From the NCBI RefSeq assembly GCF_001870515.1, contig NZ_MDGT01000003.1, positions 124,001 through 188,000 on the forward strand: 64,000 bases of DNA, in the 5' to 3' direction. The translations under genes and the position numbers were made by a program. The number at the start of each line of letters is the position of its first letter. Positions within the stretch are counted from its first letter, which is position 1. The notes under the pieces are model-generated. The model saw nothing but the letters and a program-made list of their open reading frames with translations. It ran no database searches and had not been told where the DNA came from. Shown piece after piece: positions 13,188-31,874 of this stretch. Source of the DNA: Idiomarina sp. MD25a (GTDB taxonomy: Bacteria > Pseudomonadota > Gammaproteobacteria > Enterobacterales > Alteromonadaceae).

Positions 13188-13201
13188 TTGATGACGCTCA
13201 A
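13188..13201. promoter_or_regulatory. FNR-box-like sequence before the oxygenase/peroxiredoxin operon
   Basis: TTGATGACGCTCAA matches TTGAT-N4-ATCAA at 9 of 10 fixed positions. It lies only 18 bp before the oxygenase ATG and touches a possible -10 (TATATT, 13205-13200, minus strand). Binding here would block transcription, which would make sense for an oxygen-requiring enzyme. A single mismatch box can occur by chance. Confidence 0.35.
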
Positions 13202-13333: not shown

Positions 13334-14980
13334 ATGTATACCTCGCCAAAGCCACCTGAATCGCTGTACGTGAAAAAGCTATTGTCGATGATTGAAGCGA
13401 CGCAGGCTGGCACGTGGGAGTGGAACGTACAAACCGGCGAATACCGCTTTAACGAGCGTTGGGCAGAGATTATCGGTTATCAACTGGATGAACTGACACC
13501 GAGTATCGACAGTTGGCTCCAACACTCGCATCCAGAAGACCTCGTTTTATCCAATCAGCGACTTGAAGAGCACTTTGCAGGTCGCTCGCCATTTTATGAG
13601 TGTGAAGCGCGAATGCGCCACAAGGATGGGCATTGGGTTTGGGTTCGTGATTCGGGACGGTGTGAAACGTGGACTGCCGATGGCAAGCCTGAGTGGGTAA
13701 TAGGAAGCCATATTGAAATTACCCACCTGGTTGAGTTGCGTCATCGCTTTTCTACGATTGCTTCGTTAATTCCAGGTGTCGTTTATGAGTTCCAGCAGTT
13801 CAAAGATGGTCGGACACGGTTCCCGTACGCCAGCGCAGGCATTAAAGAAATTTACGGTGTCGACCCCGAGCACGTCATCGAGGATGCATCAGCCGTGTTT
13901 GAAACGCTTCACCCTGATGATATGCCTCACATTATGGAAACTATCGCACAATCCCGTGCCGATATGAGCGACTGGGTCTGTGAATACCGCGTGGTAGTAA
14001 ATGGCAAGGAGCGTTGGGTATTTGGCCACGCTCGACCGGTTTATAAGACGAATGATGCGATTAGTTGGTACGGCATGATTGTCGATATTTCTGAGCGCAA
14101 AATGATGGAGCTTGAGCTCGAACGTAGCCGGCGTAATTTAAAACAGGCGCAAGCATTAACCAAACTCGGTCACTGGGAAGCCAACCTGAACAATAGAACA
14201 ATCTATTGGTCTGATATGATCTATACCATCTTAGGTTGGCGCGAAAAGCCAGACAGTGGCGACTTTCACTTTTTTCGAGACAGAACCCACCCCGATGACC
14301 TCGATCAAATTATAAAAGCCGAACGTGAATTAAAGCCCGGCCACACTGTCGATATTCAGCATCGCGTTCAACACACGGATGGACACTATTTGTGGGTGAG
14401 GCAGATCGTGGAAATGGAAGCTAACGGTGAAATGGTGTTAGGCACACTAAGGGATATTACCGAAGAGAAAGAACTCGAGTTAAAACTGAAAGAGCAAGCA
14501 GAACGTGACCCACTTACCGGCGCTTATAATCGGCGCTTTTTTACCGAGGCTTTAGAAACACTGGTGTATCGGAGTGAACGCTATGAAGAATCCTTGGCGA
14601 TCGTCACGTTTGATATCGATCATTTTAAGCGAATTAATGATAACTTTGGTCACGAAGCGGGTGATCGCGTATTAATTGAGTTGGTGCAGACGCTCGGCGG
14701 ATTGGTAAGGGAAAGCGATATCTTTGCGCGTACTGGCGGTGAAGAGTTTTCGCTGTTGTTACCCAATCAGACGCTGCAACAAGCAACTCATACGGCTGAG
14801 CGATTCCGCGCCGCTTTAGAGGCGTTAGTGATTCGATCTGAGGGCAATGAAATTAAAATTACAGCTTCGTTTGGCGTTGCCATCCATCGCAACGGCGCGA
14901 CGCATAATGAAGTACTGCGCCACGCTGACAAAGCGCTGTACGCCGCTAAAAGTTGCGGACGTAACTGTGTGATGAGTTAA
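13334..14980 (+). CDS. Diguanylate cyclase with three PAS domains
   Basis: A 548-residue soluble signalling protein without membrane segments. Three PAS/PAC modules follow one another at about 15-130, 140-255 and 265-385; each has the PAS_3-type W-x-W or WVR and HPDD pattern (SHPEDL, LHPDDM, THPDDL). A GGDEF domain follows with active-site GGEEF at 468-472 and an allosteric I-site RESD at 459-462, so c-di-GMP synthesis with product inhibition is expected. The PAS domains probably sense a small ligand or redox state in the cytoplasm. Its stop overlaps that of the convergent phosphoesterase gene by 4 bp (TTAA). Confidence 0.93.
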   Translation: MYTSPKPPESLYVKKLLSMIEATQAGTWEWNVQTGEYRFNERWAEIIGYQLDELTPSIDSWLQHSHPEDLVLSNQRLEEHFAGRSPFYECEARMRHKDGHWVWVRDSGRCETWTADGKPEWVIGSHIEITHLVELRHRFSTIASLIPGVVYEFQQFKDGRTRFPYASAGIKEIYGVDPEHVIEDASAVFETLHPDDMPHIMETIAQSRADMSDWVCEYRVVVNGKERWVFGHARPVYKTNDAISWYGMIVDISERKMMELELERSRRNLKQAQALTKLGHWEANLNNRTIYWSDMIYTILGWREKPDSGDFHFFRDRTHPDDLDQIIKAERELKPGHTVDIQHRVQHTDGHYLWVRQIVEMEANGEMVLGTLRDITEEKELELKLKEQAERDPLTGAYNRRFFTEALETLVYRSERYEESLAIVTFDIDHFKRINDNFGHEAGDRVLIELVQTLGGLVRESDIFARTGGEEFSLLLPNQTLQQATHTAERFRAALEALVIRSEGNEIKITASFGVAIHRNGATHNEVLRHADKALYAAKSCGRNCVMS

Positions 14981-15786
14981 GCTACACGGGGTTTGAGTTG
15001 TTTGATGCTCGCCTGACTATTGAGCCATGAAGGTACGTCTAATAGCTCCCATTCGCCATTTTCGTGTTCAACGATAGCGCTACAGGAATCTTGCCAGTCA
15101 CCGGTGTTTAAATAATGCGTATTATTAAAATGACGATCGGCGGGCACATGGATATGTCCGCATATGACGCCGTCATAACCCTTACGTTCTGCGTAGGCGG
15201 TCGCAGCAAGTTGATAACGGTGTACATATTTCAATGCTTGCGAAGAACGAGACTTCACTGCTTTGGCTAGGCTCCAATAGACGTAACCCTTTCGAGTGCG
15301 CCAACGATTAAAGCGACGGTTAATTTTAAGCAACCCTTCATAGATGTTATCGCCAACCCAATTGAGCAGGCGATGTCCTCTTACTTGATTATCAAATTGA
15401 TCCCCGTGCATTACGATATAATGGCGGTCATTAATCGCGTGATAATCATAGGTGTTGGTCAACTGGATATTAACGATGCCCTTATCAAAGGGGTAGTCGT
15501 CGAGCAGCTGGCGTAAGCCACCATCGTGATTGCCTGTGATATAAACTACCTGTACGCCCTCTTGCGCCTGCTTGAGCAGTTTGCGAATCACTTTAATATG
15601 CGACTCATCCAACCCTTGGCCTTTGCTACGGATCGCCCATAAATCAATAATATCACCTACTAAAACTAGTTTTTTAAAACGAATATGCTTTAAAAACTCG
15701 AGCAGCAGCTCACAATGACTGGTGGATGAACCGAGGTGAATATCAGAAAGAAACAGCGTGTTGACCGATGGCTTATGTTTGCTCAT
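14977..15786 (-). CDS. LpxH-like metallophosphoesterase
   Basis: A calcineurin-like phosphoesterase of about 269 residues. Metal-binding motifs appear in order: LFLSDIHLGS, LVGDIIDLW, ITGNHDGG, MHGDQFDN and GHIHVPAD. This set resembles UDP-2,3-diacylglucosamine diphosphatases, which remove UMP in lipid A synthesis, but it is longer than LpxH of E. coli, so a second LpxH-like phosphatase is also possible. The start at 15786 is chosen because GGGAGGCT lies 7 bases upstream; a longer in-frame start at 15837 lacks such a site. Confidence 0.8.
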   Translation of the reverse strand: MSKHKPSVNTLFLSDIHLGSSTSHCELLLEFLKHIRFKKLVLVGDIIDLWAIRSKGQGLDESHIKVIRKLLKQAQEGVQVVYITGNHDGGLRQLLDDYPFDKGIVNIQLTNTYDYHAINDRHYIVMHGDQFDNQVRGHRLLNWVGDNIYEGLLKINRRFNRWRTRKGYVYWSLAKAVKSRSSQALKYVHRYQLAATAYAERKGYDGVICGHIHVPADRHFNNTHYLNTGDWQDSCSAIVEHENGEWELLDVPSWLNSQASIKQLKPRVA

Positions 15787-15946
15787 GTTCAGCCTCCCGA
15801 TGATGAACGCTGAAAAAATAGCCCGTAAAGATGACAACCCGTTTAATAGCTCATGACAAATCTGTGAATAAAATAGACCGTTCAGCTCTGGCTGTGTAAA
15901 ATCTGGTGCGTTTTATGAACTGATTTGTAAGGTAAGAGAGACTATT

Positions 15947-16663
15947 ATGGGCCGCGCCTATCAAAACCGAAAAGAATCCATTGCAAAAACAGCGACCGCA
16001 AAGAGCCGCGTATACAGTCGCTTTGGTCGCGAAATTTATGTCTGTGCAAAACAAAGTGGGCCCGATCCTGATGCGAACTTGGCATTACGGAGCTTGATTG
16101 ACCGGGCCAAAAAGGAGCAGGTTCCGTCTCATGTTATTGATAAAGCGCTTGATAAAGCGCAGGGCGGTGCGGGTGAAGACTTTTCACCGGCTCGTTACGA
16201 GGGTTATGGGCCCAGTAACTGCATGGTCATTGTGGAATGTCTTACGGATAATCCGAACCGCACGTTTGGTGAGGTGCGCAACTGCTTCACTAAAAGCAAA
16301 TGTAAGATCGGTGAGCAGGGCAGTGTCATGCATTCGTTCGAACATTGTGCGATTTTTGCGTTCAAACATGACAACGAAGACGAGGTGCTCGAGGCATTGA
16401 TGGATGCTGATGTCGATGTGGGCGACGTGGAGTTTGATGACGGTGTTGTTACCGTGTTCGCTCCGCATACTGAGTATGCAGCTGCGCGCCAGGCATTAAC
16501 CGCTGCTTTCGCCGATATCGACTTTGATACGGACGAAATTCAATTTGTTCCTCATGTCACGACCGCAATTGCGGAAGATGATATGCCGATGTTTGAGCGT
16601 TTGATGGATATGCTTAACGACTGTGATGATGTGCAAAACATCTATCACAATGCTGAGGTATAA
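15947..16663 (+). CDS. YebC/PmpR family regulator, YeeN-like
   Basis: A 238-residue protein of the YebC/PmpR/TACO1 family. The N-terminus MGRAYQNRKESIAKTATAKS, the central RYEGYGPSNCMVIVECLTDNPNRT and the terminal DDVQNIYHNAEV match the second subfamily, to which E. coli YeeN belongs. Members were first described as DNA-binding regulators and have more recently been linked to translation of proline-rich sequences by the ribosome. It is distinct from the yebC normally located beside ruvC. ompW lies 81 bp downstream. Confidence 0.9.
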   Translation: MGRAYQNRKESIAKTATAKSRVYSRFGREIYVCAKQSGPDPDANLALRSLIDRAKKEQVPSHVIDKALDKAQGGAGEDFSPARYEGYGPSNCMVIVECLTDNPNRTFGEVRNCFTKSKCKIGEQGSVMHSFEHCAIFAFKHDNEDEVLEALMDADVDVGDVEFDDGVVTVFAPHTEYAAARQALTAAFADIDFDTDEIQFVPHVTTAIAEDDMPMFERLMDMLNDCDDVQNIYHNAEV

Positions 16664-16672
16664 AAGACTCTG

Positions 16673-16714
16673 TTGATACAGGTCAAGCATCGCTGATCTC
16701 AAACTCGTTATGCT
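16673..16714 (+). promoter_or_regulatory. FNR-box-like site and -10 element of ompW
   Basis: TTGATACAGGTCAA (16673-16686) differs from the FNR box at one position. A -10-like TATGCT follows at 16709-16714. If transcription starts near 16721, the box is centred at -41.5, exactly where FNR activates class II promoters. ompW of E. coli is known to be activated by FNR, which supports the reading. Confidence 0.55.
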
Positions 16715-16744
16715 TCATGGGTCATCTAAAAGTAGGAGTGACTC

Positions 16745-17443
16745 ATGAAGCGTTTAACTTCCGCCGTTGCACTTGCAACACTGTTCGCCGCATCGTTTGC
16801 CCAAGCGCAAGACTTCTCAATTAACGTGGGTGCTATTTCAGTTATTCCTGATGATAGTAGCAGCTCATTAAACACTGTAGAGCAAGTAGCTGGACTACCT
16901 GCTAACTCAACCGGTGTCGCCGTAAACACCAACACCCAGCTCGGTCTCACTTTTGACTATCAGTGGGAAAATGGTTGGGGCCTTGAATTGGTCGCAGCGA
17001 CGCCGTTCTCTCACGATATCTACGGTTCGGGCACTTTGAGCGGCTTGTCTATCGGTAAGACCAAACATTTACCGCCAACGTTATTTGTTCAATACCATTG
17101 GGATACGGGTGTTCAAGGACTTGAGCCCTTTGTTGGCTTAGGTGTTAACTACACCACGTTTTTCGATGATCAGGCATCGAGCGAGCTAACCCAAACGTTA
17201 CAAACACTCGGCGTAGCGGGCGCTGATGACTCCGTAGATTTGGCGTTATCCAATTCTTGGGGGGCGGCAATACAGGCGGGTGTGAACTGGGAGATCTCAG
17301 AGCGTTGGGGTGCGCAGTTAATGGTGAGCCATATCGACATTGATACCACAGCGTCAGTCCGTTTAAACGGCAGTACAATTGAGCAGACGGATGTGGCAAT
17401 TGACCCCTATGTGGCGATGATTGCGCTACGGTATACCTTCTAG
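16745..17443 (+). CDS. ompW: Outer membrane protein OmpW family
   Basis: A 232-residue eight-stranded beta-barrel. A signal peptide MKRLTSAVALATLFAASFAQA precedes the mature start QDFSINVGA. Family features are GLTFDYQWENGWGLELVAATPFSHDI, the KHLPPTLFVQYHW segment, GLGVNYTTFF and the C-terminal strand MIALRYTF ending in Phe, needed for barrel assembly. OmpW proteins form a narrow hydrophobic channel and are often induced by low oxygen or osmotic stress. TAGGAG precedes the ATG. The stop codon directly abuts the Pho-box of ppk. Confidence 0.93.
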   Translation: MKRLTSAVALATLFAASFAQAQDFSINVGAISVIPDDSSSSLNTVEQVAGLPANSTGVAVNTNTQLGLTFDYQWENGWGLELVAATPFSHDIYGSGTLSGLSIGKTKHLPPTLFVQYHWDTGVQGLEPFVGLGVNYTTFFDDQASSELTQTLQTLGVAGADDSVDLALSNSWGAAIQAGVNWEISERWGAQLMVSHIDIDTTASVRLNGSTIEQTDVAIDPYVAMIALRYTF

Positions 17444-17461
17444 TTGTCATTTTACTGTCAT
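17444..17461 (+). promoter_or_regulatory. Pho-box-like sequence upstream of ppk
   Basis: TTGTCAT-TTTA-CTGTCAT at 17444-17461 has the two 7-bp direct repeats with 4-bp A/T spacer of a PhoB binding site (consensus CTGTCAT-A/T4-CTGTCAY); only the first base differs. A possible -10 (TATATT, 17490-17495) lies 28 bp downstream, somewhat further than in the best-known Pho promoters; TGTAAT at 17464-17469 is another candidate. PhoB control of polyphosphate kinase is known in other gammaproteobacteria. Confidence 0.6.
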
Positions 17462-17523
17462 ACTGTAATCGCTTGGTCGCGCTATTCTGTATATTAAATA
17501 GATGAGCGGCCAGGCGTTTTTGT

Positions 17524-19590
17524 ATGAAGTTCTATTTTAAAGAATTAAGTTGGCTTTCGTTTAACGAGCGCGTGCTTCAAGAAGCCAATGACGAGGAAGT
17601 GCCCGTTATTGAACGAGTAAGATTCCTTGGTATATTTTCCTCTAACATGGACGAGTTTTTTCAGGTCCGTGTCGCAGATGTGCGTCGACGAATTTTCTTT
17701 GCACAAACTGATGCACAACGAAAAGACAGCGAGCGATTACTGCATCTTATCCAACAAAAAGTAGTGCAGTTACAGGAACAGTTCGAGCTGATTCACCGTA
17801 AAGTGATAAAGGCGTTGCGGGCTGAAAACATTATTTGGGCTTCGGGTGAGCAAGTCACAGAAGAGGAAAAGACAGGTTTACGGGAGTATTTTGATAATAA
17901 AATAAAGCCGCAAATTGTGCCTATCCTCATTAACGATACGACCGATTTGGTTAAAGTCATAAACGAAGATAAAACTTACTTATTGGCGCAATTGCAACAG
18001 TCAGGTCAACGTAAGTACGCTGCAGTGCAGATCCCCTCTCATGAGTTATCGCGTTTTGTTATTTTGCCTAAAAAGCGTGATAGCAAGTTGCGTAAAGTAC
18101 TATTCCTAGATGATGTTGTTTTACTCAATTTGGCCAGTTTATTTAAAGGCATTGTGCCGTTTCAGTCTATTATTGCCTTTTCTTTCAAAATGACGCGTGA
18201 TGCAGAGTACCGCCCCTCTGATGATATTGAGCAGAGCTTACTTGAACGTATGGAAGAAGGCTTAAAACAGCGGGAAAAAGCGGACCCTGTAAGGCTTGTT
18301 TATGATCGGGCAATGCCGATTCACATGTTGAATTTGTTGAGTAAGAAACTACATCTTAATCAATACGATGCCATGGTTGCGGGCGGCCGCTATCGCAATA
18401 CGAAAGACTTTTTAAGCTTTAAAAACTTAGGCGGCAAAAAGCTCGAGCATCCACCGATTCCTGCACTCAAGCATCCTCGTTTTGAGTTGGCGGACAATGT
18501 ATTTGATGCCATTAAGCGTAATGATATTTTGCTTTACTACCCCTATCATCGGTTTGGTCACTTTACTGAGGTGATCCGACAGGCCTGTTATGACCCCCAT
18601 GTGTTAAAAATTCATATGTGTATTTATCGCGTTGCACCTAATTCTCGGATTATTCATTCATTGATGGACGCGGTGCAAAACGGAAAGAAAGTCACCGTGA
18701 TGGTCGAGCTGCAAGCGCGGTTTGACGAGGAGGCCAATATCGAATGGGCGAAGGAGCTGACTGAATCAGGTGTGAAAGTGATTTTCGGTCTGCAAGGACT
18801 CAAGGTTCATTCGAAGTTATTGTTGATACATCGCCAAGAGGAGCATGCTATTCGCCGTTATGGTGTTATTGGGACGGGGAACTTTCATGAAAAAACAGCA
18901 AAACTCTACACCGACTTTAGCTTGTTTACTTGTCACCCTGAGATCTGTTCAGATATTGAGAACGTGTTTAATTATCTTGAGCAACCTTATCGTTTTTACC
19001 CGTGGCATCAGCTATTGGTGGCGCCCAATAATTTACGTACGCGAATTAATGAACTCATTGAGAGAGAAATTAATTATGCGAAAAATGGTAAACCTGCGGA
19101 AATTTTCTTAAAGCTGAACAATCTGGTTGATAATGCGCTGATCGTACAACTCTACCGAGCGAGTCGCGCAGGCGTAAAAATTCGTTGCATTGTGCGCGGA
19201 ATGTGTACGCTGCGACCCAATGTACCTAAGCTCAGCGAAAATATCGAAGTTATTAGTATTATTGATCGGTTTTTAGAGCATGCGCGTGTCTATATCTTTG
19301 GCAATGATGGTGATACAAAGGTCTTTATTTCGTCGGCTGATTTGATGACACGTAACGTCGATCATCGGGTTGAGGTCGCATGCCCAATTTATGATCACGC
19401 TGCACAACAGGATATACTGACTATTATGGATATGCAGTGGAACGATAATATCAAAGCACGTCGTATCGATGCCGAACAAGTGAATGAGTATGTCACTCCA
19501 GTGTCTGAGCGCGGCCAGATTTCTCGTCGTAAGCGGTTGAGGTCACAATTAAAAATACATGAATACTTCAAACGAAGAACTTATGACTGA
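17524..19590 (+). CDS. ppk1: Polyphosphate kinase 1
   Basis: A 688-residue PPK1, which polymerises the gamma-phosphate of ATP into inorganic polyphosphate. The N-terminal domain shows KELSWLSFNERVLQEA and IFSSNMDEFFQVRV. The catalytic histidine that becomes phosphorylated is His429 (GLKVHSKLLLIHR), followed by IGTGNFHEKTAKLYTDFSL. The second essential histidine is His586 (RFLEHARVYIF), then ISSADLMTRNVDHRVEV. The gene starts 80 bp after ompW and overlaps ppx, so synthesis and breakdown of polyphosphate are encoded together. Confidence 0.97.
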   Translation: MKFYFKELSWLSFNERVLQEANDEEVPVIERVRFLGIFSSNMDEFFQVRVADVRRRIFFAQTDAQRKDSERLLHLIQQKVVQLQEQFELIHRKVIKALRAENIIWASGEQVTEEEKTGLREYFDNKIKPQIVPILINDTTDLVKVINEDKTYLLAQLQQSGQRKYAAVQIPSHELSRFVILPKKRDSKLRKVLFLDDVVLLNLASLFKGIVPFQSIIAFSFKMTRDAEYRPSDDIEQSLLERMEEGLKQREKADPVRLVYDRAMPIHMLNLLSKKLHLNQYDAMVAGGRYRNTKDFLSFKNLGGKKLEHPPIPALKHPRFELADNVFDAIKRNDILLYYPYHRFGHFTEVIRQACYDPHVLKIHMCIYRVAPNSRIIHSLMDAVQNGKKVTVMVELQARFDEEANIEWAKELTESGVKVIFGLQGLKVHSKLLLIHRQEEHAIRRYGVIGTGNFHEKTAKLYTDFSLFTCHPEICSDIENVFNYLEQPYRFYPWHQLLVAPNNLRTRINELIEREINYAKNGKPAEIFLKLNNLVDNALIVQLYRASRAGVKIRCIVRGMCTLRPNVPKLSENIEVISIIDRFLEHARVYIFGNDGDTKVFISSADLMTRNVDHRVEVACPIYDHAAQQDILTIMDMQWNDNIKARRIDAEQVNEYVTPVSERGQISRRKRLRSQLKIHEYFKRRTYD

Positions 19591-21097
19591 AACTACTCAT
19601 TCTGATTGGTTGAAATCAGATAACCGTGAGCACCTGGCAGCGCTTGATTTGGGCTCGAACAGCTTCCACTTGATCATTGGTCGGGTAATTGAAGGACAAA
19701 TACAACCGATACATAAGTTCAAGCAACGCGTGTCTTTGGCAGAAGGATTGGTGAATAAAGGCATCAGCGTTGAGGCATTTGAGCGTGGTTTAGATGCGCT
19801 GTCCCAATTTGCCATGCATCTGAGAGACTTCAGTCCGGAGCGGGTGCGTGTTGTGGCGACTCACACCTTACGTGAAGCGAACAATCGTAAAAAGTTTATT
19901 CATGCCGCACGGCAGCTATTGCCGTTTCCAATTGAAGTCATTTCAGGTCGTGAAGAAGCCCGTCTTATATATTTGGGCGTGGCGCAAGCGGTTCCGTTTC
20001 GTGGCGTACGGCTGATTATTGATATTGGCGGTGGTAGTACTGAATTTGCCGTCGGTCAGGGTGAGATACCCGAGATATTGCTATCAAAAAGTTTTGGTAG
20101 TTTAGTTATTTCGGAGCGTTTTTTTGCGAAAGGCAAGATTACTGAAAAGCGCTTTCATAGAGCGGTTCTTAGCGTCAAACAAGAGCTTGAGCCATTTAGT
20201 AAGCAGCTCAAGCGAGCTCACGCGGAACAAGTGTTAGGTACCTCTGGTACTATAAAGGCGCTAGCCAAGTGGATTAACCCAAACGCCGACGGCGATTTAA
20301 CGATAACACTGCACCAGTTGCATCAGTTGCGCGACAAGTTGCTGTCGTTAAAAAATGTAGCACAGATTGACCCAACAGAGATCGAGGTACAACGGATACC
20401 GTCAATTGTCGGTGGGTTAGCAGTGCTCATTGCCGTGTGTGAAGAACTTAATATTGATTGTTTAAGTTCGGTGGATGCGGCACTCCGTGAAGGCGTGTTA
20501 TTTGAACTCGCAGAACAGGCGGTGTTTCACAAAGACATTCGTTATAAAACTATTCAAAGTATGGCTGCGCGCTATCAAGTGGATGATGCTCAGGCGCAAC
20601 GCGTATGGGCTTCGGTAGAATGCATTTTGCAGGGACTCGGTAAAGCGTGGCAACTGAATACACCTGACATCAAACTCTTGCTCGTTGGCGCAAGTGGCTT
20701 ACATGAGGTGGGCATGAATATAAGCTCAAGCGCTATTCAAAAGCACTCGGGCTATATTCTCTCGAACGCTTATATGCCAGGCTTTAGCTCAGATGAGCAG
20801 CGCGTGCTCGCCTTGTTGTGCCGCTATTTCCGTAAGAAAATTGTTGTCGATGACTTGTCCGAATTTGCTCAGTTTGACCACCTTACCGTTGCTCGCATGA
20901 TTGTGGTGATTCGATTGGCGGTACTACTTAACGCGAGTCGACAGACGCATAACGTGTTGCATTCGGTCAAGTTAAAAGGCTCGACATTATTATTGAAGCT
21001 ACAAGGACCGTTGGCAAAAAGCGCGATACTGGAAGCGGATATCGTTCGCGAGAATAAATATTTAAGTGTGCTCGGATACCAGTTGAGCACTGAATAA
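19559..21097 (+). CDS. ppx: Exopolyphosphatase Ppx/GppA
   Basis: A 512-residue member of the actin-like Ppx/GppA phosphatases, which remove terminal phosphate from polyphosphate or from pppGpp. Nucleotide/phosphate loops are ALDLGSNSFHLIIGRV and LIIDIGGGSTEFAVG; VATHTLREANN and GTSGTIKALAKW are also conserved. A C-terminal HD-like helical domain follows residue 320. The first ATG (19559) overlaps ppk by 32 bp; ATG 19583 is an alternative with GAAGAA upstream and an 8-bp overlap. The overlap implies coupling with ppk1 and favours Ppx over GppA. Confidence 0.93.
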   Translation: MNTSNEELMTETTHSDWLKSDNREHLAALDLGSNSFHLIIGRVIEGQIQPIHKFKQRVSLAEGLVNKGISVEAFERGLDALSQFAMHLRDFSPERVRVVATHTLREANNRKKFIHAARQLLPFPIEVISGREEARLIYLGVAQAVPFRGVRLIIDIGGGSTEFAVGQGEIPEILLSKSFGSLVISERFFAKGKITEKRFHRAVLSVKQELEPFSKQLKRAHAEQVLGTSGTIKALAKWINPNADGDLTITLHQLHQLRDKLLSLKNVAQIDPTEIEVQRIPSIVGGLAVLIAVCEELNIDCLSSVDAALREGVLFELAEQAVFHKDIRYKTIQSMAARYQVDDAQAQRVWASVECILQGLGKAWQLNTPDIKLLLVGASGLHEVGMNISSSAIQKHSGYILSNAYMPGFSSDEQRVLALLCRYFRKKIVVDDLSEFAQFDHLTVARMIVVIRLAVLLNASRQTHNVLHSVKLKGSTLLLKLQGPLAKSAILEADIVRENKYLSVLGYQLSTE

Positions 21098-21119
21098 TGT
21101 CCCCTCAGCTCATGGGTCA

Positions 21120-21146
21120 GATCAAGTCTTTAGTGAAGACTTGATC
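21120..21146. repeat. Perfect 11-bp inverted repeat after ppx
   Basis: GATCAAGTCTT (21120-21130) and AAGACTTGATC (21136-21146) are perfect reverse complements around the loop TAGTG. It could end the ppk-ppx transcript, but no T-run follows. The right arm overlaps the left half of the FNR box at 21141-21154, so a protein-binding role is also possible. Confidence 0.6.
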
Positions 21147-21154
21147 CTGATCAA
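21141..21154 (+). promoter_or_regulatory. Perfect FNR box upstream of the chemoreceptor-hemerythrin gene
   Basis: TTGATCCTGATCAA fits TTGAT-N4-ATCAA at all ten fixed positions. A -10-like GATAAC lies at 21175-21180, which would put the box near -40 from the transcription start, the activating class II position. The start codon is 84 bp downstream of the box. Confidence 0.7.
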
Positions 21155-21237
21155 TTCATTAGTGTCATAAATTGGATAACGTGCATTCAGAAATGCTACC
21201 GGTTGGGTAGTTATGTAAGCCAATTTTCGGAGGGCTT

Positions 21238-22938
21238 GTGCACGCACTCGTTTCAGTCACCAAACCAATCCAACTTTTCTTCAATGGCCTGCGTTTCAGG
21301 AACAAATTTATTGTCACCGGCAGCTTGTTGTTTTTGCCTGTTATTGTGCTCAGTTTATTAATGATGTGGGACTCTTACCAACGCCAGCAGGCGGCGCTTA
21401 ATGGTCATGCGCTCGATGTGAGTGATCCTACACAAGTTATCCTATGGAATGCGGTTATGCTCGCTGGCATGGTGTTGGTTCAACTCATTATCTTCACTGC
21501 CATGTATACCGGAATTAAACGTTCACTGGGCGAGGCTAACCGAATATCAAACGCATTGGCCAATGGCGATCTTAATAATACCGCACAACTCAAAGGCAGT
21601 GATGAATTGGCGTGGCTTACTGAGCGACTCAACACAATCTCTGTTGAGACAAGTTATTCGGTTCACGCAATTCGCACAGCCAGCGATGGTTTGAATCGAC
21701 TCGGTACCGCTAATTACGATGCCAACAAAGCGTTAGCAGAGAAAACTAAACAGCAAGCCGATACGATGTATCAAGTTTCCTCTGCCGCTGAACAAATGAC
21801 CGCTGCCATCAATGAAGTGTCTGAATCGACTCAAAGAGCGGCTACCAGCGCTCATGAAAGCCTTAACGCTGCGAGCAGTGGACGGCAGCGCGTACAGCAA
21901 TTAGCAAAACATAACATCACTTTGAGTGAGGATATCTTGCATTCGCAATCGGTGATCAAGAGCCTGTCTGAAGATAGCAAAGCTATTGGCACTATCTTGA
22001 CGACCATCAATGACATTGCCGAGCAAACCAATTTACTTGCACTTAACGCGGCCATCGAGGCAGCGCGAGCGGGCGAGACAGGACGCGGCTTTGCGGTAGT
22101 CGCTGACGAAGTGCGTAAACTTGCTCATCGGGTACAAACATCAACGGGCGAAATCCAAAGCGTGGTGGAACGTTTGGAGCAAAACACCCAACAAGCGGTG
22201 AGTAGTCTTAATAATAATGCGCAGCAAGCAGAGCGAGCAAAACTATCTGCTGAAGAGGCTGAGGCGGCGCTCGATACCATCGTAACCTTTACTCATCAAA
22301 TTACTGATCTCAATACCCAGGTGGCCTCTGCAACCGAGCAACAGGCGATGACCACTACAACGATTAAAGAAGCGATTACCACGGCGACCGATGCGGCGAA
22401 AGAAGTTGATAGCTATTCACAACATGCACTTGAGAGTGCTGCGCAGCTAACGACGCTTGGCGGTGAGATTCAATCGTTAGGTGATCGCTATTCAGTCGAC
22501 GCCCAGATAATCGAATCGCGTCTGGCGCAGCAAGAAAAGCTAATTGAATGGTCACCGCAGTTTGATGTTGGTATTGAGGAGATTAATCGTCAGCACCAGC
22601 GGTTGATTTACATTGCCAACGAGCTGTACCGAATACAGCAGCGAGGTGGTGACCGTCAGGCGGTTGAACGATTATTGAGTTCATTGATTAACTACACTGC
22701 AACCCATTTTAGTTACGAAGAGTTGTTAATGGAGCGCCACGACTACCCCGATCTGGGTGCGCATAAACACAAGCATCAGCAGTTAGTGCAGCAAGTCATT
22801 GATTTTCGGACCCGTATCGAGCGTGGCGACCAAGTGGTAGGAGAGTTACTCGAATTTGTGAAGCGATGGCTATTGCAGCATATTCAGCACAGTGATAAGG
22901 CTTATCAAGCCCACCTGAATGAGCGAGGGGTACATTAA
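21238..22938 (+). CDS. Methyl-accepting chemotaxis protein fused to a hemerythrin domain
   Basis: A 566-residue receptor starting at GTG with GGAGG-like sequence (CGGAGGGCTT) before it. Two membrane helices (about residues 28-48 and 62-86) enclose a periplasmic part of only about 20 residues, so no external sensor domain fits. A HAMP-like linker and the signalling hairpin with [30 protein letters not shown] follow. The C-terminus is a complete bacteriohemerythrin: di-iron ligands His453, His490, Glu494, His509, His513, His548 and Asp553 are all present. It probably senses oxygen in the cytoplasm and steers aerotaxis. A perfect FNR box lies upstream. Confidence 0.93.
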
Positions 22939-22945
22939 CCCCTCG
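22924..22945. terminator. Hairpin between chemoreceptor and gcdH
   Basis: CGAGGGG (22924-22930) pairs with CCCCTCG (22939-22945) around an 8-base loop that contains the TAA of the chemoreceptor gene. It sits in the 24-bp gap of two convergent genes and could end either transcript, though neither side has a clear T-run. Confidence 0.4.
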
Positions 22946-22962
22946 TTATCCTATGTATGCTT

Positions 22963-24135
22963 TTAAAAAGCGCTGATACCCGTCTGACCGCGACCCAATA
23001 TCAGCGCATGCACATCATGGGTGCCCTCGTAGGTGTTAACTGACTCGAGGTTCATAACATGCCTTATCACATGATACTCATCAGAAATGCCATTGCCGCC
23101 ATGCATATCACGCGATTGACGAGCGATATCCAGCGCTTTGCCACAGTTATTGCGTTTAATAAGCGAAATAGCCGTTGGGTTAAGTGCGTCTAAATCGAGT
23201 TGACGACCCGCCTGAAGCGCTGCAAGCAAGCCCAAGCTTATCTCCGTTTGCATATCCGCTAATTTCTTTTGAATCAGCTGATTGGCGGCCAGCGGACGTC
23301 CAAACTGCTCACGGTCTAAGGTGTATTGACGCGCTGCATGCCAACAAAATTCGGCAGCACCCATGGCTCCCCAAGCGATGCCGTATCGCGCCTTATTGAG
23401 GCAACTGAAAGGCCCCTTAAGACCGCTCACGTTTGGGAGTCGTTGCTCTTCGCTGACTTCAACATTGTCCATTACAATCTCACCGGTAATCGATGCGCGT
23501 AATGAAAACTTACCTTCGATTTCGGGTGTGGATAAGCCCTGCATGCCGCGTTCTAAAATGAAGCCTACGATATCGCCGTCGAATTTAGCCCATACAACAA
23601 ACACATCAGCGATAGGTGAATTAGTAATCCACATTTTGGAGCCTGTGATGCGGTAACCCGCCTCGGTTTTTATCGCTTTAGTTCGCATACTCGCAGGATC
23701 AGAGCCCGCGTCTGGTTCAGTGAGGCCAAAACTACCGACCCATTCACCGGTTGCCAATTTGGGTAGGTATTTTTGACGTTGCTTTTCGCTGCCGAATGCG
23801 TGAATAGGGTGCATAACTAAAGATGATTGAACACTCATCGCACTGCGGTAACCGCTATCGACTCGTTCGATTTCCCGTGCGATTAAGCCATAACTGACAT
23901 GATTTACACCCGCACCACCGTATGCTTCTGGAATAGTCGCGCCGAGTAAACCTAACTGCCCGAGTTCTTGCATGATCTCACGGTCAAAGCGTTCTTCGCG
24001 AAATGCAGATTGAACGCGAGGCATCAGCTTAGCTTGCGCGTATTGATGCGCTGTCTTTTGTATTAACAGCTCTTCTTCAGTCAGTTGATGGCGTAAGTTA
24101 AGTGGATCTGACCAATCAAACGCAGGTTGCGGCAT
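22963..24135 (-). CDS. gcdH: Acyl-CoA dehydrogenase, glutaryl-CoA dehydrogenase type
   Basis: A 390-residue FAD-dependent acyl-CoA dehydrogenase. Substrate and flavin motifs include [34 protein letters not shown] and the catalytic glutamate Glu370 in [16 protein letters not shown]. The combination with [16 protein letters not shown] is characteristic of glutaryl-CoA dehydrogenases, which oxidise and decarboxylate glutaryl-CoA to crotonyl-CoA in lysine and tryptophan breakdown. It begins 17 bp after the fnr stop, so it may be transcribed with fnr. Confidence 0.9.
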
Positions 24136-24152
24136 GATACCTCTCTTAAATT

Positions 24153-24878
24153 TTAGCTCGCCATCTGTTTAAGCTCAGCTGGCGCTTGGATAAATAGAAT
24201 CGACTGTTTGGTGTCGATGATATCCTTTTGTTTTAGTGAGGAAAACACGCGGCTCACAGTTTCTACAGCTAAACCCAGATAGTTAGCAATGTCAGTGCGT
24301 GTCATGGGAAGTTTAAACTCATGACGCGAGAAACCGTGTTCATATAAATGGTCAGATAGACCCATAATAAAGGATGCCACTCGTTGCTCAGCCGTGGTAT
24401 TAACCACGTTGAGATAGTGCGTATTGCGTTGGCCAATACGGTGACTGAGGAGTCTGAGTAGATTTTTATCAACACCTGTGAAATTTTGTGCGAACAATCG
24501 ATTTAGCTTTATTTCGCACAGCATCGAGGTCTCCATTGCCTCACAGTAGGTTACAGCAGCACCGTTGGAAATCGACTCCATGCCAATGATATCGCCGGTT
24601 AAATGGAAACTGGTGATTTGTTGTTTACCCTCACTATCGATGGTGTAGCATTTTACCGAGCCACTCTTAACTGCAAATAATGAATTGAGCGGCTGGTCAG
24701 GGCTGTAAACCATGTCACGTTTGCTGTAAACGTGCGGTTCACGGCTACTTTTGTCCAATTTATCGATCTCACTTGAGACGAGACCCGCAGGTACACAAAT
24801 AGATTGCATACTGCATTGGTTACATTGAATTGGATTTCTCATACCTGACTCGCTTCGACGGTGATTCATGCGGCACAT
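24153..24878 (-). CDS. fnr: Oxygen-sensing regulator FNR
   Basis: A 241-residue CRP/FNR family activator. Cluster cysteines read as Cys19, Cys22 and Cys28 ([11 protein letters not shown]) and Cys121 (METSMLCEI), the same pattern as the [4Fe-4S] cluster of E. coli FNR. The helix-turn-helix has [13 protein letters not shown]; Glu, Ser and Arg in VETVSR are the residues that read TTGAT. The cluster breaks down in oxygen, so the protein is active only without oxygen. Start 24878 is chosen for AGGGGA just upstream; a GTG at 24896 and an ATG at 24842 are alternatives. Two FNR boxes lie upstream, pointing to self-control. Confidence 0.95.
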
Positions 24879-24905
24879 CTGACGTCCCCTTAACACCTGA
24901 TGGTG

Positions 24906-24919
24906 TTGATATAGATCAG
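24906..24919. promoter_or_regulatory. FNR-box-like site close to the fnr start
   Basis: TTGATATAGATCAG has one mismatch to the FNR box. It lies 28 bp before the proposed fnr ATG, in or downstream of the likely transcription start, a position from which FNR would repress its own gene. Confidence 0.5.
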
Positions 24920-24964
24920 TATTAATCGTGATGCAGAGCGTAGCAAATGCCTGCTTTGCAAAAC

Positions 24965-24978
24965 TTGATCTAGATCAA
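24965..24978. promoter_or_regulatory. Perfect FNR box in the fnr upstream region
   Basis: TTGATCTAGATCAA is a perfect, fully palindromic FNR box between hemN (stop at 25004) and fnr. A weak -10-like TACGCT (24942-24937, minus strand) stands at the same distance from the box as the -10 of ompW does from its box, so FNR could activate fnr here. Confidence 0.7.
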
Positions 24979-25003
24979 GCTGGTTATAAATTATCCGCTA
25001 TCT

Positions 25004-26359
25004 TCATATTACACGAGAATACCGCATTTGATGAGTATTTAAATACTCATCGAAACTGCTAGCAATTGTCCTTACCAGAAGCTTACCTGCCGAGGTGATT
25101 GTTAATTGGTCTGTGGTGAGTTTGACCAAGCCATCGTCGATGAAGGGTTGTAAGCGTTTAATCTCTTCAGCGAAGTGACTTGCAAAGTTATCGATTGACC
25201 ATTTTGTATTAAAGGCATGAAGGTTAACTTTAAACTCACACAGTAACCTTTTAATCAGATCGCCGCGAATCTTATCTTCTAACGTTGAGTGATAGCCTTT
25301 GATAATAGGCAGTTGCTGTTTAACAAGTGCATCGTAATAATCTTTTAATCCTTTTTCATTTTGCCAAAAATGACCATCGATGTGAGAGATTGAAGATACG
25401 CCGAGCCCTAACACTGCGCTTTGCTCTTGAGTGACATAACCTTGAAAATTGCGGGTCAGAGTGCCCTCGCGTTGAGCGATGGCAAGCGAATCTGTTGGCT
25501 TAGCAAAGTGGTCCATGCCAATAAATTGGTAATCGAGCCCAGTGAGATGCTCAATGGCTTGCTTGAACAAAGCGAGTTTTTGCTCCGGCTTGGGTAACCA
25601 ACTCGCTTTAATTTTGCGTTGCGCTGCAAAGCGCTCTGGTAAATGAGCATAATTAAAGAGCGATACACGATCAGGATTTAAACGCTCGACTAGTGCGAGC
25701 GTGTGGGCAAACCGGGTTTCGGTTTGTAGTGGCAGACCGTAAATGAGATCAAAGCTAATAGACTCAAATCCGAGCGAACGCGCATGGCTGACTTGCTCTG
25801 CCACGAGCTCAAAGGACTGAGTGCGATGAATTGCGATTTGGACATCGTTATCGAAGTCTTGAATACCAAAACTTAAGCGATTAAAGCCTAAAGTACGCAA
25901 TACACTGAGTTTTTCATTATCACATTGACGTGGATCGATCTCGATACTCAGCTCCTTGATGCTTTGATTCGAACTGACATCTTTGATCAGAGCCATCAAG
26001 CGTCGCAGCTGAGCTGTGTTTAAGAATGTCGGTGTACCACCGCCTAGGTGAACACTGGCAATATGTTTGTTAGCTAATACATGACGATAGAGTTCTAACT
26101 CCGTGCCTAAAGCATCTAGATACTCATCGGCTTTATACTGATGGCGAGTAATAATCTTGTTGCAACCGCAGTAATAGCATAGCGAGGCGCAAAAAGGTAA
26201 ATGAATATAGAGCGAAATCGGCTTTTTATAATCAGCGACAACCGCTTGACAAGTGGATGTGTCGATCTGGTCATGGAAGCTTAGAGCCGTTGGATATGAA
26301 GTATATCTAGGCCCGTGAATATTGTACTTCTTCAGCCAGTTCCAGTCCCACTGCTGCAT
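25004..26359 (-). CDS. hemN: Oxygen-independent coproporphyrinogen III oxidase
   Basis: A 451-residue radical SAM enzyme that decarboxylates coproporphyrinogen III to protoporphyrinogen IX without oxygen, in the cytoplasm. The [4Fe-4S] cysteines are Cys57, Cys61 and Cys64 (PFCASLCYYCGC), with Cys66 at the fourth conserved place as in E. coli HemN. HLGGGTPTFL binds SAM. Length and the N-terminal YNIHGPRYTSYPTAL argue for true HemN, not HemW. GGAGG lies 8 bases before the ATG. A perfect FNR box is about 70 bp upstream, consistent with anaerobic induction. Confidence 0.96.
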   Translation of the reverse strand: MQQWDWNWLKKYNIHGPRYTSYPTALSFHDQIDTSTCQAVVADYKKPISLYIHLPFCASLCYYCGCNKIITRHQYKADEYLDALGTELELYRHVLANKHIASVHLGGGTPTFLNTAQLRRLMALIKDVSSNQSIKELSIEIDPRQCDNEKLSVLRTLGFNRLSFGIQDFDNDVQIAIHRTQSFELVAEQVSHARSLGFESISFDLIYGLPLQTETRFAHTLALVERLNPDRVSLFNYAHLPERFAAQRKIKASWLPKPEQKLALFKQAIEHLTGLDYQFIGMDHFAKPTDSLAIAQREGTLTRNFQGYVTQEQSAVLGLGVSSISHIDGHFWQNEKGLKDYYDALVKQQLPIIKGYHSTLEDKIRGDLIKRLLCEFKVNLHAFNTKWSIDNFASHFAEEIKRLQPFIDDGLVKLTTDQLTITSAGKLLVRTIASSFDEYLNTHQMRYSRVI

Positions 26360-26427
26360 ATTAAACCTCCAATTATCGTGATAGTGCGGAAGTTTAGCAG
26401 TTAAGTAAGCTCGGTATGTTTTAGCTT

Positions 26428-26441
26428 TTGATTTGAATCAA
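26428..26441. promoter_or_regulatory. Perfect FNR box upstream of hemN
   Basis: TTGATTTGAATCAA fits TTGAT-N4-ATCAA at all ten fixed positions and lies in the gap between hemN and the preceding same-strand gene. The hemN -10 is not clear; TAAACT (26396-26391) is one candidate. Confidence 0.65.
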
Positions 26442-26458
26442 GGGTGGTTTAAAAACGC

Positions 26459-26845
26459 TCAGTGATTACTTTTGGGCTCCTCATATTCATCTAAACATGC
26501 CAGCCATACCGCGACAATCAGCAATATACTTCCCACAGTGATTCGAAGCCACAATGGTAAAGGTACCAACCAAGAAATCAGATAGCCGCTTGCCATCATG
26601 GTAATCGCGATAACTTTATTGCGTCGACGTATTTGTCGATGTTCGCGCCAAGCAATAAGGTCGGGACCGTATTTAGGATGGTTTAACAACCACGTCTCGA
26701 GTTGTGGCCATCCTTTGCTTGCTGCCCATAACGCGACAATTAGGAAAGGAACAGTTGGCATGACCGGTAGCGCAAGACCGATAATGCCAAGCATAACAAA
26801 TAGAACGGCAATACAACGCCAAATTGTGATGTACATCCACTTCAT
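26459..26845 (-). CDS. DUF454 (YbaN-like) inner membrane protein
   Basis: A 128-residue membrane protein of the DUF454/YbaN family. Hydrophobic helices at about residues 5-42 (containing LGIIGLALPVMPTVPFLI, the family hallmark) and two more at 80-115; WLLNHPKYGPDLIAWREH lies between them. Function is unknown. It stands between the DUF4870 gene and hemN on the minus strand. Confidence 0.82.
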   Translation of the reverse strand: MKWMYITIWRCIAVLFVMLGIIGLALPVMPTVPFLIVALWAASKGWPQLETWLLNHPKYGPDLIAWREHRQIRRRNKVIAITMMASGYLISWLVPLPLWLRITVGSILLIVAVWLACLDEYEEPKSNH

Positions 26846-26913
26846 GAATACGACCCAAACGCTATGGTCGCTCGAGTGTACGCAAATCTACAGGGCTACA
26901 CCAGCTCTCACTA

Positions 26914-27393
26914 TCACAAAAACCGAATTGATAGTGGATAATTTTTGGTAACACCTTCTTTAGCGTTCATCGCCCCGAGAATAACAAAAATGATCGAGAG
27001 TATGCCGAGAATAAATAACGGTATAAACGATAGGCCAAAGGTAATAAAACCGAGGAAAAATAGCACGATTGAGTATATTAAAGCGCTTAAAAGCCAATTA
27101 AAAATGATTCGGCCATGGGCATCAATGTATGAGTCCTCGCGCTTGAGGATCCACATTACAATGGGCACTAAAAAGCCAATGATGGGTAATACAAAGCTAC
27201 AAAACTGTGCAAGATGCATGAAGAACGCATAGGTTTTTTCATCTTCAGTGAGCTTACGCAACCCGTCAAACTCCGACTTAGACCCAAGCTCACTTTCGTT
27301 ATTAAGTTTCTCGCGTTGTCGGTTGTACTCATCCTCCGAGATAGTCCCCTCTTCTTTTAACTGATTGAGTACCCGTAATTTTTCGTAATCCAT
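26914..27393 (-). CDS. DUF4870 membrane protein with N-terminal SHOCT motif
   Basis: A 159-residue protein. Residues 3-32 (YEKLRVLNQLKEEGTISEDEYNRQ) form a SHOCT-type short helical module, often found at the ends of membrane or oligomerising proteins. From residue 52 there is a DUF4870/Tic20-like domain (FFMHLAQFCSFVLPIIGFLVPIVMWIL, then AHGRIIFNWLLSALIYSIVL) with three or four membrane helices. The function is not known. It is divergent from the M14 peptidase gene. Confidence 0.8.
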   Translation of the reverse strand: MDYEKLRVLNQLKEEGTISEDEYNRQREKLNNESELGSKSEFDGLRKLTEDEKTYAFFMHLAQFCSFVLPIIGFLVPIVMWILKREDSYIDAHGRIIFNWLLSALIYSIVLFFLGFITFGLSFIPLFILGILSIIFVILGAMNAKEGVTKNYPLSIRFL

Positions 27394-27483
27394 GTTTTGC
27401 CCTCATGGGTTAAAAAGGACGTTAAATATCTATCCAATACTAAAAAAAGTCGGTAAGCTAATTGCTTAAAAAAGGTACGGAAA

Positions 27484-30171
27484 ATGCTGAAACTGACTCG
27501 TTTATCTCGCCCTAAGCGCCAATCGATGTGTGGCATTATATTAGCTATGCTATTCGCTGGCCCAACGTTTGTTAACGCAAAAGCAACAATCAATCAGTAT
27601 GACTATCAAGATTCTGTTTCAACTGTCAAGGATATTTTAGGTTATGAAATTGGCACTAAAATTTCTTCTCCCGATGCCATATATCAGTATTTTCGTGCGC
27701 TGAGTGATAGCCATAGTGACCGTGTTCGGTTAATCGAATATGGGCGCTCATGGGAGGGACGTCCTCTCTATTTTGTTGCCGTATCCGCCCCCCAACATAT
27801 TGCTGAGCTTGATAATTACGCTGCACGTATGAGCGCACTCGGTGACCCGCGTAAAACCTCTTCACGTGAGGCAGAGCAGTTGGCGAAGGGCATACCGAGT
27901 AGTGTTTGGTTATCTTATGGCGTACATGGAAACGAGATTTCATCTCCTGAAGCAGCCATGATGACGCTGTATCATCTGTTAGCAGATACATCAGCTGACA
28001 CAAAAAACTGGTTAGAAAATACTGTCGTGTTTATCGATCCGTTACAAAATCCCGATGGTCGGGCACGGTTTGTTAGTCGTTATTACGCAACTGTTGGCTT
28101 AATTCATGATGCCGACCGACGAAGTGCCGAACACAATGAACCTTGGCCACAAGGACGCTCCAACCACTACCTTTTTGATCTTAACCGTGACTGGATTGCG
28201 CTTACGCAGCCAGAAATTAAAGGTCACGTGGCGGCATTAAAAGATTATCCACCGTTGCTGTTTGTTGATTTACACGAAATGGGTGGAGACTCGAGTTACT
28301 ACTTTACACCTGAAGCGCGCCCCTATAACCCCTACATCACTGAGTCACAACGCGAAATATTACATTGGGTGGGGCGCAATAACGCAGAGTGGTTCGATGA
28401 TGCCGGTTATGACTACTACACTCGCGAGATATTTGATGCCTTTTACCCAGGCTATGGTGCAAGCTGGCCGCTTTATTCCGGTTCGGTGGCGATGACGTAC
28501 GAAATGGCCTCGGCACGAGGTCATCGTTTTGCGCGCGAGGATGGTACGATACTGACCTATCTTGATGGTGTTGAACGTCACTTTACCAGTAGTTTGGCGA
28601 CTATTGAGACAGCCAGCGTTCGTCGCGAGGCATTATTAAATCGATATCGCGATTATCGTATCAGCGCTGTCGAACAAGGTCGGGCGAGTGACCGTAGGAC
28701 CGTGGCTATTGCTGATCCAAAGAACCCGGCGGGGCAACAGCGGCTTGCAGCTTTACTGCAGGAACACGGTATTGAGGTGATGCGCAGTGAAAAGGCGCTA
28801 GAGGTGTGTGACGTAAACTACCCTAAAGGTAGTTACTTTGTTGACATGGCACAGCCGAACTATCGTTTGATTCGGGTGTTGCTAGACGAACAAATCGATA
28901 TGGCTGATGATTTTGTTGAACAACAGAAGCAGCGCAAAGCTAATTTATTAGATGATCAGATTTATGACGTAACGGGCTGGTCGCTCCCGCTTATGTTTAA
29001 TGTCGATGTTGCTTACTGTGATGAAGCGGTGCAATCACCCGTGGTACAGGAAGCTATTGCGCCAATAGCACCTGGGCGACTAACTAATGCAGACGCTCAG
29101 ATCGGTTATATTGTGAAAGCGGGTGATATGAACTCAAGCCGGTTTATTGCTGCCGCGCTGCGCGCGGGCTTAGCGATTAAACAAAGTGAACTGGCTTTTA
29201 CCCATGAGAAGGCAGGTGAATTTCCAGCCGGCACTGTCATCTTAACGCGAGCTGAGAACTCCACGAACGATCTAGTTACCACCCTGCAACGTTTAGCTGT
29301 TGAAACAGGCGCTCATATCATCGGGGTTGATACGAGCTGGGTGGTTAAGGGACCTAATTTTGGTTCGGAAAATGTTCAGTCGTTAACCGCGCCAAAGATT
29401 GCAATGGCATGGGATGAGCCAGTTTCATCATTAAGTGCTGGTCACACGCGTTTTGTAATTGAACGGCAAATCGGTTATCCGGTCATAGCAATACGTACGA
29501 CGCAGTTAGTAAGTACCAACCTAGCAGGCATTGATGTGTTGATCCTGCCAGAAGCTCAGGCGAGCTATGCGAACTATTTTTCGCCAACAGGTCTCACGAA
29601 TTTGCAAAACTGGGTCGAAAACGGTGGCGTTCTCATCACTTTGGGTAACGCAACAGGGTGGGCTGTAGAGGCTGACTTACTGTCGACACATATGGAATAT
29701 GCCGTGGATTCGGCTGAGGCAGACAACGCTGATGAAAAAGCGCTTAGACCTGCCAAGATAATCGAGTCTGCCGCGGTGTTTAAGGAGCATATCAAAGCAT
29801 CCGAAAAGATGCCTGACTACGTGCCGGGCGCCTTGGTTAATGTTGAAGTCGATCAGAATCATTGGCTAACTGCAGGAATACAGAGTGAACTAGTTGCTAC
29901 ATTTACGGGTAATCAAGTGTTCGCTCCCCTGAGTATTGACGATGGCCGTAATTTAGCTTGGTTCGCTGAAGGTGAGAGAGTATTAGCAAGTGGCCTGTTG
30001 TGGCCAGATATAAAGCAACAACTTCCGTTTAAGCCGCAATTAATGGTCGAGCCTATGGGTAAAGGGATGCTGATAGCTTATGCGCAATCGCCTACTTATC
30101 GCGCTTATATGGATGGCTGGGTTCCGTTGCTGACAAACAGTCTGTTTTTGGCACCTGCTAAAACGAAATAA
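27484..30171 (+). CDS. Secreted M14 family zinc carboxypeptidase
   Basis: An 895-residue metallopeptidase with a signal peptide (MLCKLT-like basic start, then CGIILAMLFAGPTFVNA). The M14 domain spans roughly residues 55-370: zinc ligands in SYGVHGNEISSPEAA (His and Glu) and FVDLHEMGGDSSYYF (His), with MTYEMASARGHRF near the expected catalytic glutamate. The C-terminal half, about 500 residues, contains a glutamine-amidotransferase-like fold region (VLILPEAQASYANYF) and is typical of large M14 proteins in marine bacteria. It likely trims peptides outside the inner membrane. It starts a six-gene same-strand run. Confidence 0.88.
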   Translation: MLKLTRLSRPKRQSMCGIILAMLFAGPTFVNAKATINQYDYQDSVSTVKDILGYEIGTKISSPDAIYQYFRALSDSHSDRVRLIEYGRSWEGRPLYFVAVSAPQHIAELDNYAARMSALGDPRKTSSREAEQLAKGIPSSVWLSYGVHGNEISSPEAAMMTLYHLLADTSADTKNWLENTVVFIDPLQNPDGRARFVSRYYATVGLIHDADRRSAEHNEPWPQGRSNHYLFDLNRDWIALTQPEIKGHVAALKDYPPLLFVDLHEMGGDSSYYFTPEARPYNPYITESQREILHWVGRNNAEWFDDAGYDYYTREIFDAFYPGYGASWPLYSGSVAMTYEMASARGHRFAREDGTILTYLDGVERHFTSSLATIETASVRREALLNRYRDYRISAVEQGRASDRRTVAIADPKNPAGQQRLAALLQEHGIEVMRSEKALEVCDVNYPKGSYFVDMAQPNYRLIRVLLDEQIDMADDFVEQQKQRKANLLDDQIYDVTGWSLPLMFNVDVAYCDEAVQSPVVQEAIAPIAPGRLTNADAQIGYIVKAGDMNSSRFIAAALRAGLAIKQSELAFTHEKAGEFPAGTVILTRAENSTNDLVTTLQRLAVETGAHIIGVDTSWVVKGPNFGSENVQSLTAPKIAMAWDEPVSSLSAGHTRFVIERQIGYPVIAIRTTQLVSTNLAGIDVLILPEAQASYANYFSPTGLTNLQNWVENGGVLITLGNATGWAVEADLLSTHMEYAVDSAEADNADEKALRPAKIIESAAVFKEHIKASEKMPDYVPGALVNVEVDQNHWLTAGIQSELVATFTGNQVFAPLSIDDGRNLAWFAEGERVLASGLLWPDIKQQLPFKPQLMVEPMGKGMLIAYAQSPTYRAYMDGWVPLLTNSLFLAPAKTK

Positions 30172-30188
30172 CGAGGTCATGGTTTAAC

Positions 30189-31873: not shown

Positions 31874-31874
31874 T

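Follow-up and report, generated by a model that had tools for sequence, protein, structure and literature searches.

A hemerythrin chemoreceptor with a conserved upstream FNR box in Idiomarina

The best-studied chemoreceptor that joins a methyl-accepting chemotaxis protein (MCP) to a hemerythrin is DcrH of Desulfovibrio vulgaris. Its signalling mechanism is described as unresolved in the excerpted texts of PMC9388753 and PMC13401364, which also call the signalling mechanism and the in vivo role of hemerythrin chemoreceptors in general poorly known. In Pseudomonas aeruginosa, the regulator ANR controls the receptor gene aer (Hong et al. 2004, as cited in the excerpt of PMC13401364). Here we describe an MCP-hemerythrin receptor gene of Idiomarina sp. 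MD25a and the FNR box that stands in front of it. Both lie in a stretch of 64,000 nucleotides (contig NZ_MDGT01000003.1, positions 124,001 to 188,000) that is called the window below.

We consider it likely, judging from the gene, its surroundings and its relatives, that the product is a membrane chemoreceptor with a cytoplasmic hemerythrin as oxygen input, that FNR raises its level at low oxygen, and that it descended from a longer receptor of the NIT type. When oxygen falls, active FNR would bind the upstream box and increase transcription of the receptor, with the result that more of a direct oxygen sensor would be made close to anoxia. The hemerythrin domain would then be altered by oxygen, or by the redox change that oxygen brings about at the di-iron site, and this alteration would pass via the adjacent signalling coiled coil to CheA activity and, in turn, to the direction of swimming. 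The longer ancestor would have carried a NIT-type external domain that was lost in the lineage of the window.

The receptor and its FNR box

The receptor matched Pfam MCPsignal (PF00015) at residues 205-384 (E 9.4e-41) and Pfam Hemerythrin at residues 445-556 (E 5e-13), both above cut-off, and the NCBIfam bacteriohemerythrin match at residues 435-561 was above cut-off as well. HAMP, at 20 bits, stayed below its cut-off of 25 bits, while the orthologue L127 reached 28.6 bits, above the cut-off. The seven di-iron ligands (five His, one Glu and one Asp) were identical in all 18 aligned proteins, i.e. the window receptor, 14 orthologues from the genus and three proteins from two other genera. The closest solved structures were those of the DcrH hemerythrin domain (2avk, E 4e-22). 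A sequence-only reading of this DNA had already named hemerythrin-MCP fusions such as DcrH as known. That reading's coordinates, the position of the box (TTGATCCTGATCAA at 21141-21154) and the ligand numbering (H453 H490 E494 H509 H513 H548 D553) were all borne out. Its estimate of about 20 residues outside the membrane became 24 by hydropathy; a loop of this size leaves the window receptor without a folded periplasmic domain like that of DcrH, which not every hemerythrin MCP needs to have, and a Pfam scan found no NIT domain between the two helices. Because the hemerythrin domain is placed after the MCP signalling domain, the topology puts it in the cytoplasm, as had been proposed. The one recognisable input that remains in the window receptor is this C-terminal di-iron hemerythrin, which probably binds oxygen.

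Our set of Idiomarina-like genomes comprised 19, the window's included, and an orthologue of the receptor was found in 15 of them: the window receptor itself, three proteins at 95-98% identity and eleven at 53-58%. The closest named one among the matches listed was that of Idiomarina baltica OS145 (95% identical), in a listing that may lack records very similar to the window's genome. The best matches in the four other genomes were different MCPs at about 30-35% identity.

FNR boxes were searched as TTGAT-N4-ATCAA, with the reversed pattern as a control. The window held 90 FNR-like sites with at most two mismatches, against 41.75 expected. Perfect sites numbered 20 in the window's genome (4 for the reversed pattern) and 265 in the sum of the 19 genus genomes, against 21 for the control, whose pattern includes TAG and could on that account be depleted in coding DNA. 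Since 13 of the 20 perfect sites fell within mechanically picked open reading frames (ORFs), a perfect match alone proves little. The seven intergenic ones were found before the receptor, fnr, hemN, cydA, a U32 peptidase gene and aer, and, in one case, between convergent genes.

The main evidence for the box is its positional conservation among orthologues. A box with zero or one mismatch stood directly 5' of the receptor in 13 of the 15 genus orthologues (8 perfect, 5 with one mismatch). Between box centre and start codon there were 89-90 bp in the four members of the window's clade and 114-116 bp in the remaining nine. The two exceptions were L117 and L118, where the receptor begins 12 and 10 nt after the stop codon of deoD, which we take to encode purine nucleoside phosphorylase. 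There a perfect box preceded deoD, 90 nt 5' of the gene in L117 and 77 nt 5' of the matched deoD start in L118. The box is therefore placed to control the receptor in all 15 genus orthologues, two of them via deoD. The arrangement at L117 6072-9310, and in the same region of L118, with deoD and then the receptor behind a perfect FNR box, looks like an odd but likely operon.

The gene upstream of the receptor was ppk-ppx in 4 orthologues and deoD in 10, and neither was found in 1. As these neighbours vary while the box stays, the box goes with the receptor, and we reject a chance occurrence on the same ground. Shuffling (bases permuted within 200-bp blocks) predicts a box with at most one mismatch in 0.5% of 130-bp stretches, and the density in the same regions, boxes included, predicts one in 3%. 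The 15 orthologues are related and do not amount to 15 independent trials; they represent four different upstream contexts. Two other genera supplied three relatives, and two of these had perfect boxes, at -127 and -102. Orthologues had been named as the place to look for the same box, and it was thus recovered in 15/15 within the genus and 2/3 beyond it. The FNR link of the receptor proposed by the sequence-only reading appears well supported and probably predates the genus.

A hexamer ending in AAC was found 20 nt after the box in all 13 orthologues with a direct box (GATAAC in the window, TATAAC in L119 and L121) and is a candidate -10 element. In the class II FNR arrangement of E. coli the usual spacing between box and -10 is 22 nt. 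We infer that FNR would act on the receptor by activation. A sigma-28 promoter was also considered for the receptor and rejected. The sigma-28-like pattern that precedes aer in 16 of the 19 genomes was lacking 5' of the receptor in all but one of the 15 orthologues, and this sole match, in L119, lay inside deoD. A TATATTTC-N11-GCCGATG-like block was the best site in 8 of the 9 loci L119-L127, but 7-76 of 300 shuffles reached its score; in L122 the best sigma-28-like site was elsewhere (218/300 shuffles). Nothing of this kind stood out in the window's clade.

Several observations weigh against the reading given above. The candidate -10 spacing of 20 nt is near the class II value but 2 nt short of it. 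The third relative from outside the genus, L005, has just a one-mismatch site, at -298. A hemerythrin-receptor query matched 71 of 274 genomes of the class, and among the 11 loci examined of the 30 listed, L181 and L182, from other families, also encode short-loop receptors; no box with at most one mismatch occurred in the 400 nt searched before either. Other bacterial hemerythrin sensors have unstable oxy forms, according to the excerpt of PMC9388753, so that redox sensing is possible. It may be that the hemerythrin senses another taxis cue, such as redox state, NO or peroxide, or that it stores oxygen or iron. We regard this as possible but doubtful: all the di-iron ligands are conserved, the attachment to a complete MCP signalling domain points to a sensory role, and DcrH, the best solved relative, binds oxygen (excerpt of PMC9388753).

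A reading that we find unlikely keeps FNR, or another Crp/Fnr protein, on the box and reverses its effect, so that the receptor would be repressed and made with oxygen present. Repression via FNR boxes is possible, and the spacing to the candidate -10 falls 2 nt below that of the usual activating arrangement. The receptor box, however, stands 5' of the candidate -10, with its centre 89-116 bp before the start codon, whereas the aer box described below lies after a promoter-like site, and the two geometries differ within the same genomes.

It is very improbable that the box is a mere by-product of a hairpin ending the ppk-ppx transcript, with no role for the receptor: although it lies almost wholly on one arm of a stable hairpin (-21.1 kcal/mol, 0/200 shuffles as good) that is kept in L114 and L115, and although the L127 box is part of another predicted hairpin (-15.9 kcal/mol, 4/200 shuffles as good), the hairpin is weak in L116 (15/200 shuffles as good) and was not seen in L126, yet L114, L115, L116, L126 and L127 all have a perfect box, the box is kept by orthologues with other upstream genes, and the stem has no T run after it and coincided with no predicted terminator in a scan. 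We accordingly rejected the hairpin as the cause of the box. Rfam gave no match at gathering thresholds in 14000-32000.

Table 1. Features of the receptor locus and of the fnr gene nearby, in window coordinates
Feature	Position	Strand	Basis or remark
Hairpin 3' of ppx	21115..21152	+	box on its 3' arm save the last two bases; without T run after
Perfect FNR box TTGATCCTGATCAA	21141..21154		zero mismatch; centre 90 bp 5' of receptor start codon
Candidate -10 element GATAAC	21175..21180	+	20 nt after box
Probable ribosome-binding site GGAGGG	21229..21234	+	sequence
MCP-hemerythrin chemoreceptor gene	21238..22938	+	566 aa, GTG start
Transmembrane helix 1 (residues 24-42)	21307..21363	+	hydropathy
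External loop, 24 residues	21364..21435	+	~270-aa domain, homologous to NIT-domain proteins, stands here in ten orthologues
Transmembrane helix 2 (residues 67-85)	21436..21492	+	hydropathy
MCP signalling domain (residues 205-384)	21850..22389	+	Pfam
Bacteriohemerythrin domain (residues 435-561), ligands H453 H490 E494 H509 H513 H548 D553	22540..22920	+	NCBIfam, alignment
fnr	24153..24896	-	aligned to solved FNR-type regulators
Second site upstream of fnr, 1 mismatch	24906..24919		pattern match
Perfect FNR box upstream of fnr	24965..24978		pattern match

Long and short forms of the receptor

The genus orthologues occurred in two forms. Ten were long, with 803-811 aa and about 270 residues between the helices, and five were short (the window receptor, L114, L115, L116 and L127). 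The three relatives from two other genera were long, and their external parts matched NIT above cut-off (E 3.7e-10, 1.4e-10 and 2.6e-8). The long domain of Idiomarina gave no Pfam NIT match in the five members scanned, and a PDB profile search with it returned nothing convincing (best E 0.041). It aligned almost end to end with the three NIT-matching relatives (hhalign E 3.5e-20, probability 99.3), and its assignment to NIT rests on this homology. Since the three relatives outside the genus are long and homologous to the Idiomarina long domain, the long form is most likely ancestral and the short external part derived. The sequence-only reading had taken the reduced periplasmic part as an unusual point of the receptor; it is better explained as a secondary loss.

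A tree of the acyl-CoA dehydrogenase gene (acad) together with fnr placed L127 apart from the other short forms and rejected a single short clade (approximately unbiased (AU) test, p 1.5e-6). The receptor's own tree did not firmly reject it (AU p 0.058, with a warning of long branches), and its best topology agreed with two losses. A single origin of the short form was accordingly rejected by the first tree and not firmly by the second. Because the acad and fnr tree separates L127 from the other short forms, the external domain was probably lost twice; one loss that was then spread by recombination is possible.

The gene narG occurred in four of the ten long-form genomes, in none of the five short-form ones and in one of the four that lack the receptor, numbers too few to conclude from, and napA was found in none of the 19 genus genomes. 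An explanation of the NIT loss by a loss of nitrate respiration is suggestive only. PA4520 has a NIT domain that did not bind nitrate or nitrite (excerpt of PMC6381276), and NIT therefore need not mean nitrate. In all four long-form genomes with narG (G147, G148, G155 and G157) some 18-23 kb separate this gene from the receptor gene.

The aer gene and other FNR sites

Among the intergenic perfect sites of the window's genome is one that ends about 15 nt before aer, which encodes a PAS-MCP receptor (L133 1550-1563, C3:90349-90362). For each of the 19 genus genomes we surveyed the aer copy that matched best. Fourteen of these copies carried a perfect box between -29 and -47 relative to the start codon; the other five copies had a one-mismatch site at -42 in one case, at -111 in another, and none in three. 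A TAAA/CAAA...CGATA arrangement, which resembles the sigma-28 promoter consensus, preceded aer in 16/19 (0.17 expected by shuffling), and CGATA alone in 19/19. In the 14 boxed copies the perfect box started 9-13 nt after CGATA. A protein on this box would sit at or just past the transcription start, a position suited to repression.

The perfect aer box was found in 14 of the 15 receptor-bearing genomes (G148 has none) and in none of the four receptor-less ones, one of which has the one-mismatch site at -42. A plain Fisher test calculated by hand gave p 0.0013, but the genus offers three independent tree pairs for this link (2.5 agreeing on average, none opposed), too few for significance. Of the four receptor-less genomes, one has no match to fnr and one an FNR just 38% identical. 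Among 27 aer-like copies from beyond the genus (from 17 of 22 family genomes, with start codons set by rule) there was none with a box of at most one mismatch close to the start, and two had a perfect site farther off, at -148 and -110. The three outside-genus genomes with a long receptor are among those without a close aer box, which speaks against a switch there.

With these data we tentatively suggest that FNR may serve as an oxygen-receptor switch: at low oxygen the flagellar, sigma-28-like promoter of aer would be blocked and the hemerythrin receptor turned on. In this view the receptor would once have read an outside signal too, through its NIT-type domain; that domain would then have disappeared, probably on two occasions, with the hemerythrin and the FNR box retained. 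If this were true, the cell would go from reading respiratory energy, through the flavin/PAS receptor Aer, to reading oxygen itself. We treat the aer box as a lead and not as a result.

The product of the fnr gene in the window aligned with solved FNR-type regulators (9qly, 5cvr and others) at E 8e-45 to 7e-44. The alignment showed that it retains the N-terminal cysteine motif, the cysteine farther on and, in the recognition helix, E-SR; we assume for these residues their usual roles in the Fnr cluster and in site recognition. The sequence-only reading had put fnr about 2 kb away. The gene is indeed nearby, but 1.2 kb separate its end from the receptor gene, and about 3.7 kb separate its start from the box. 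The receptor was near acad and fnr in 15 of 15 orthologues, adjoining acad in 9 and separated from it by about 3.2 kb in 6. In L117 this gap (2828-6030) contains one ORF that by eye resembles a 2-oxoacid dehydrogenase gene and another that resembles an acyltransferase gene.

Further sites were noted in the window. FNR boxes stand before hemN (26428-26441) and fnr (24906-24978), and FNR autoregulation together with FNR control of anaerobic haem synthesis is likely from their positions. A one-mismatch box lies between yebC and ompW (16673-16686); a box with zero or one mismatch was present there in all seven regions that hold both genes, and it was perfect in L121 and L126. Another one-mismatch box (13188-13201) lies about 130 bp before a gene for a diguanylate cyclase with three PAS domains (13334-14980).

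Comparison with described systems

FNR control of a hemerythrin receptor was not described in the literature titles and beginnings of abstracts covered, a coverage that leaves out most subscription journals. The sequence-only reading had regarded FNR control as unusual. The box is indeed conserved, and the control of aer by ANR offers a precedent. This aer of P. aeruginosa resembles the present case as an oxygen-taxis receptor under an FNR-type regulator and differs from it in being a PAS receptor, not a hemerythrin. The long orthologues resemble NIT-domain chemoreceptors such as PA4520 in their NIT-related external domain, which the window receptor has lost. MCP-Hr1/Hr2 of a magnetotactic bacterium are similar by description; the excerpt of PMC12442639 treats these hemerythrin MCPs as putative aerotaxis receptors and reports their deletion.

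The genomes studied here lend themselves to a natural comparison: one receptor occurs with its external domain in some and without it in others, under a conserved site of a low-oxygen switch, and the receptor stands alongside an aer gene whose FNR box has the opposite geometry. This makes it possible to ask in marine bacteria whether cells swap oxygen receptors as oxygen runs low. The closest likeness is to DcrH, which shares the membrane MCP, the cytoplasmic C-terminal hemerythrin with all ligands, and the closest solved structures. DcrH has a periplasmic domain, as stated in the excerpt of PMC9388753, whereas the window receptor has a loop of 24 residues and an FNR box. Hemerythrin receptors such as DcrH and the control of aer by Anr were already known; to these the present locus would add a conserved FNR-linked hemerythrin chemoreceptor.
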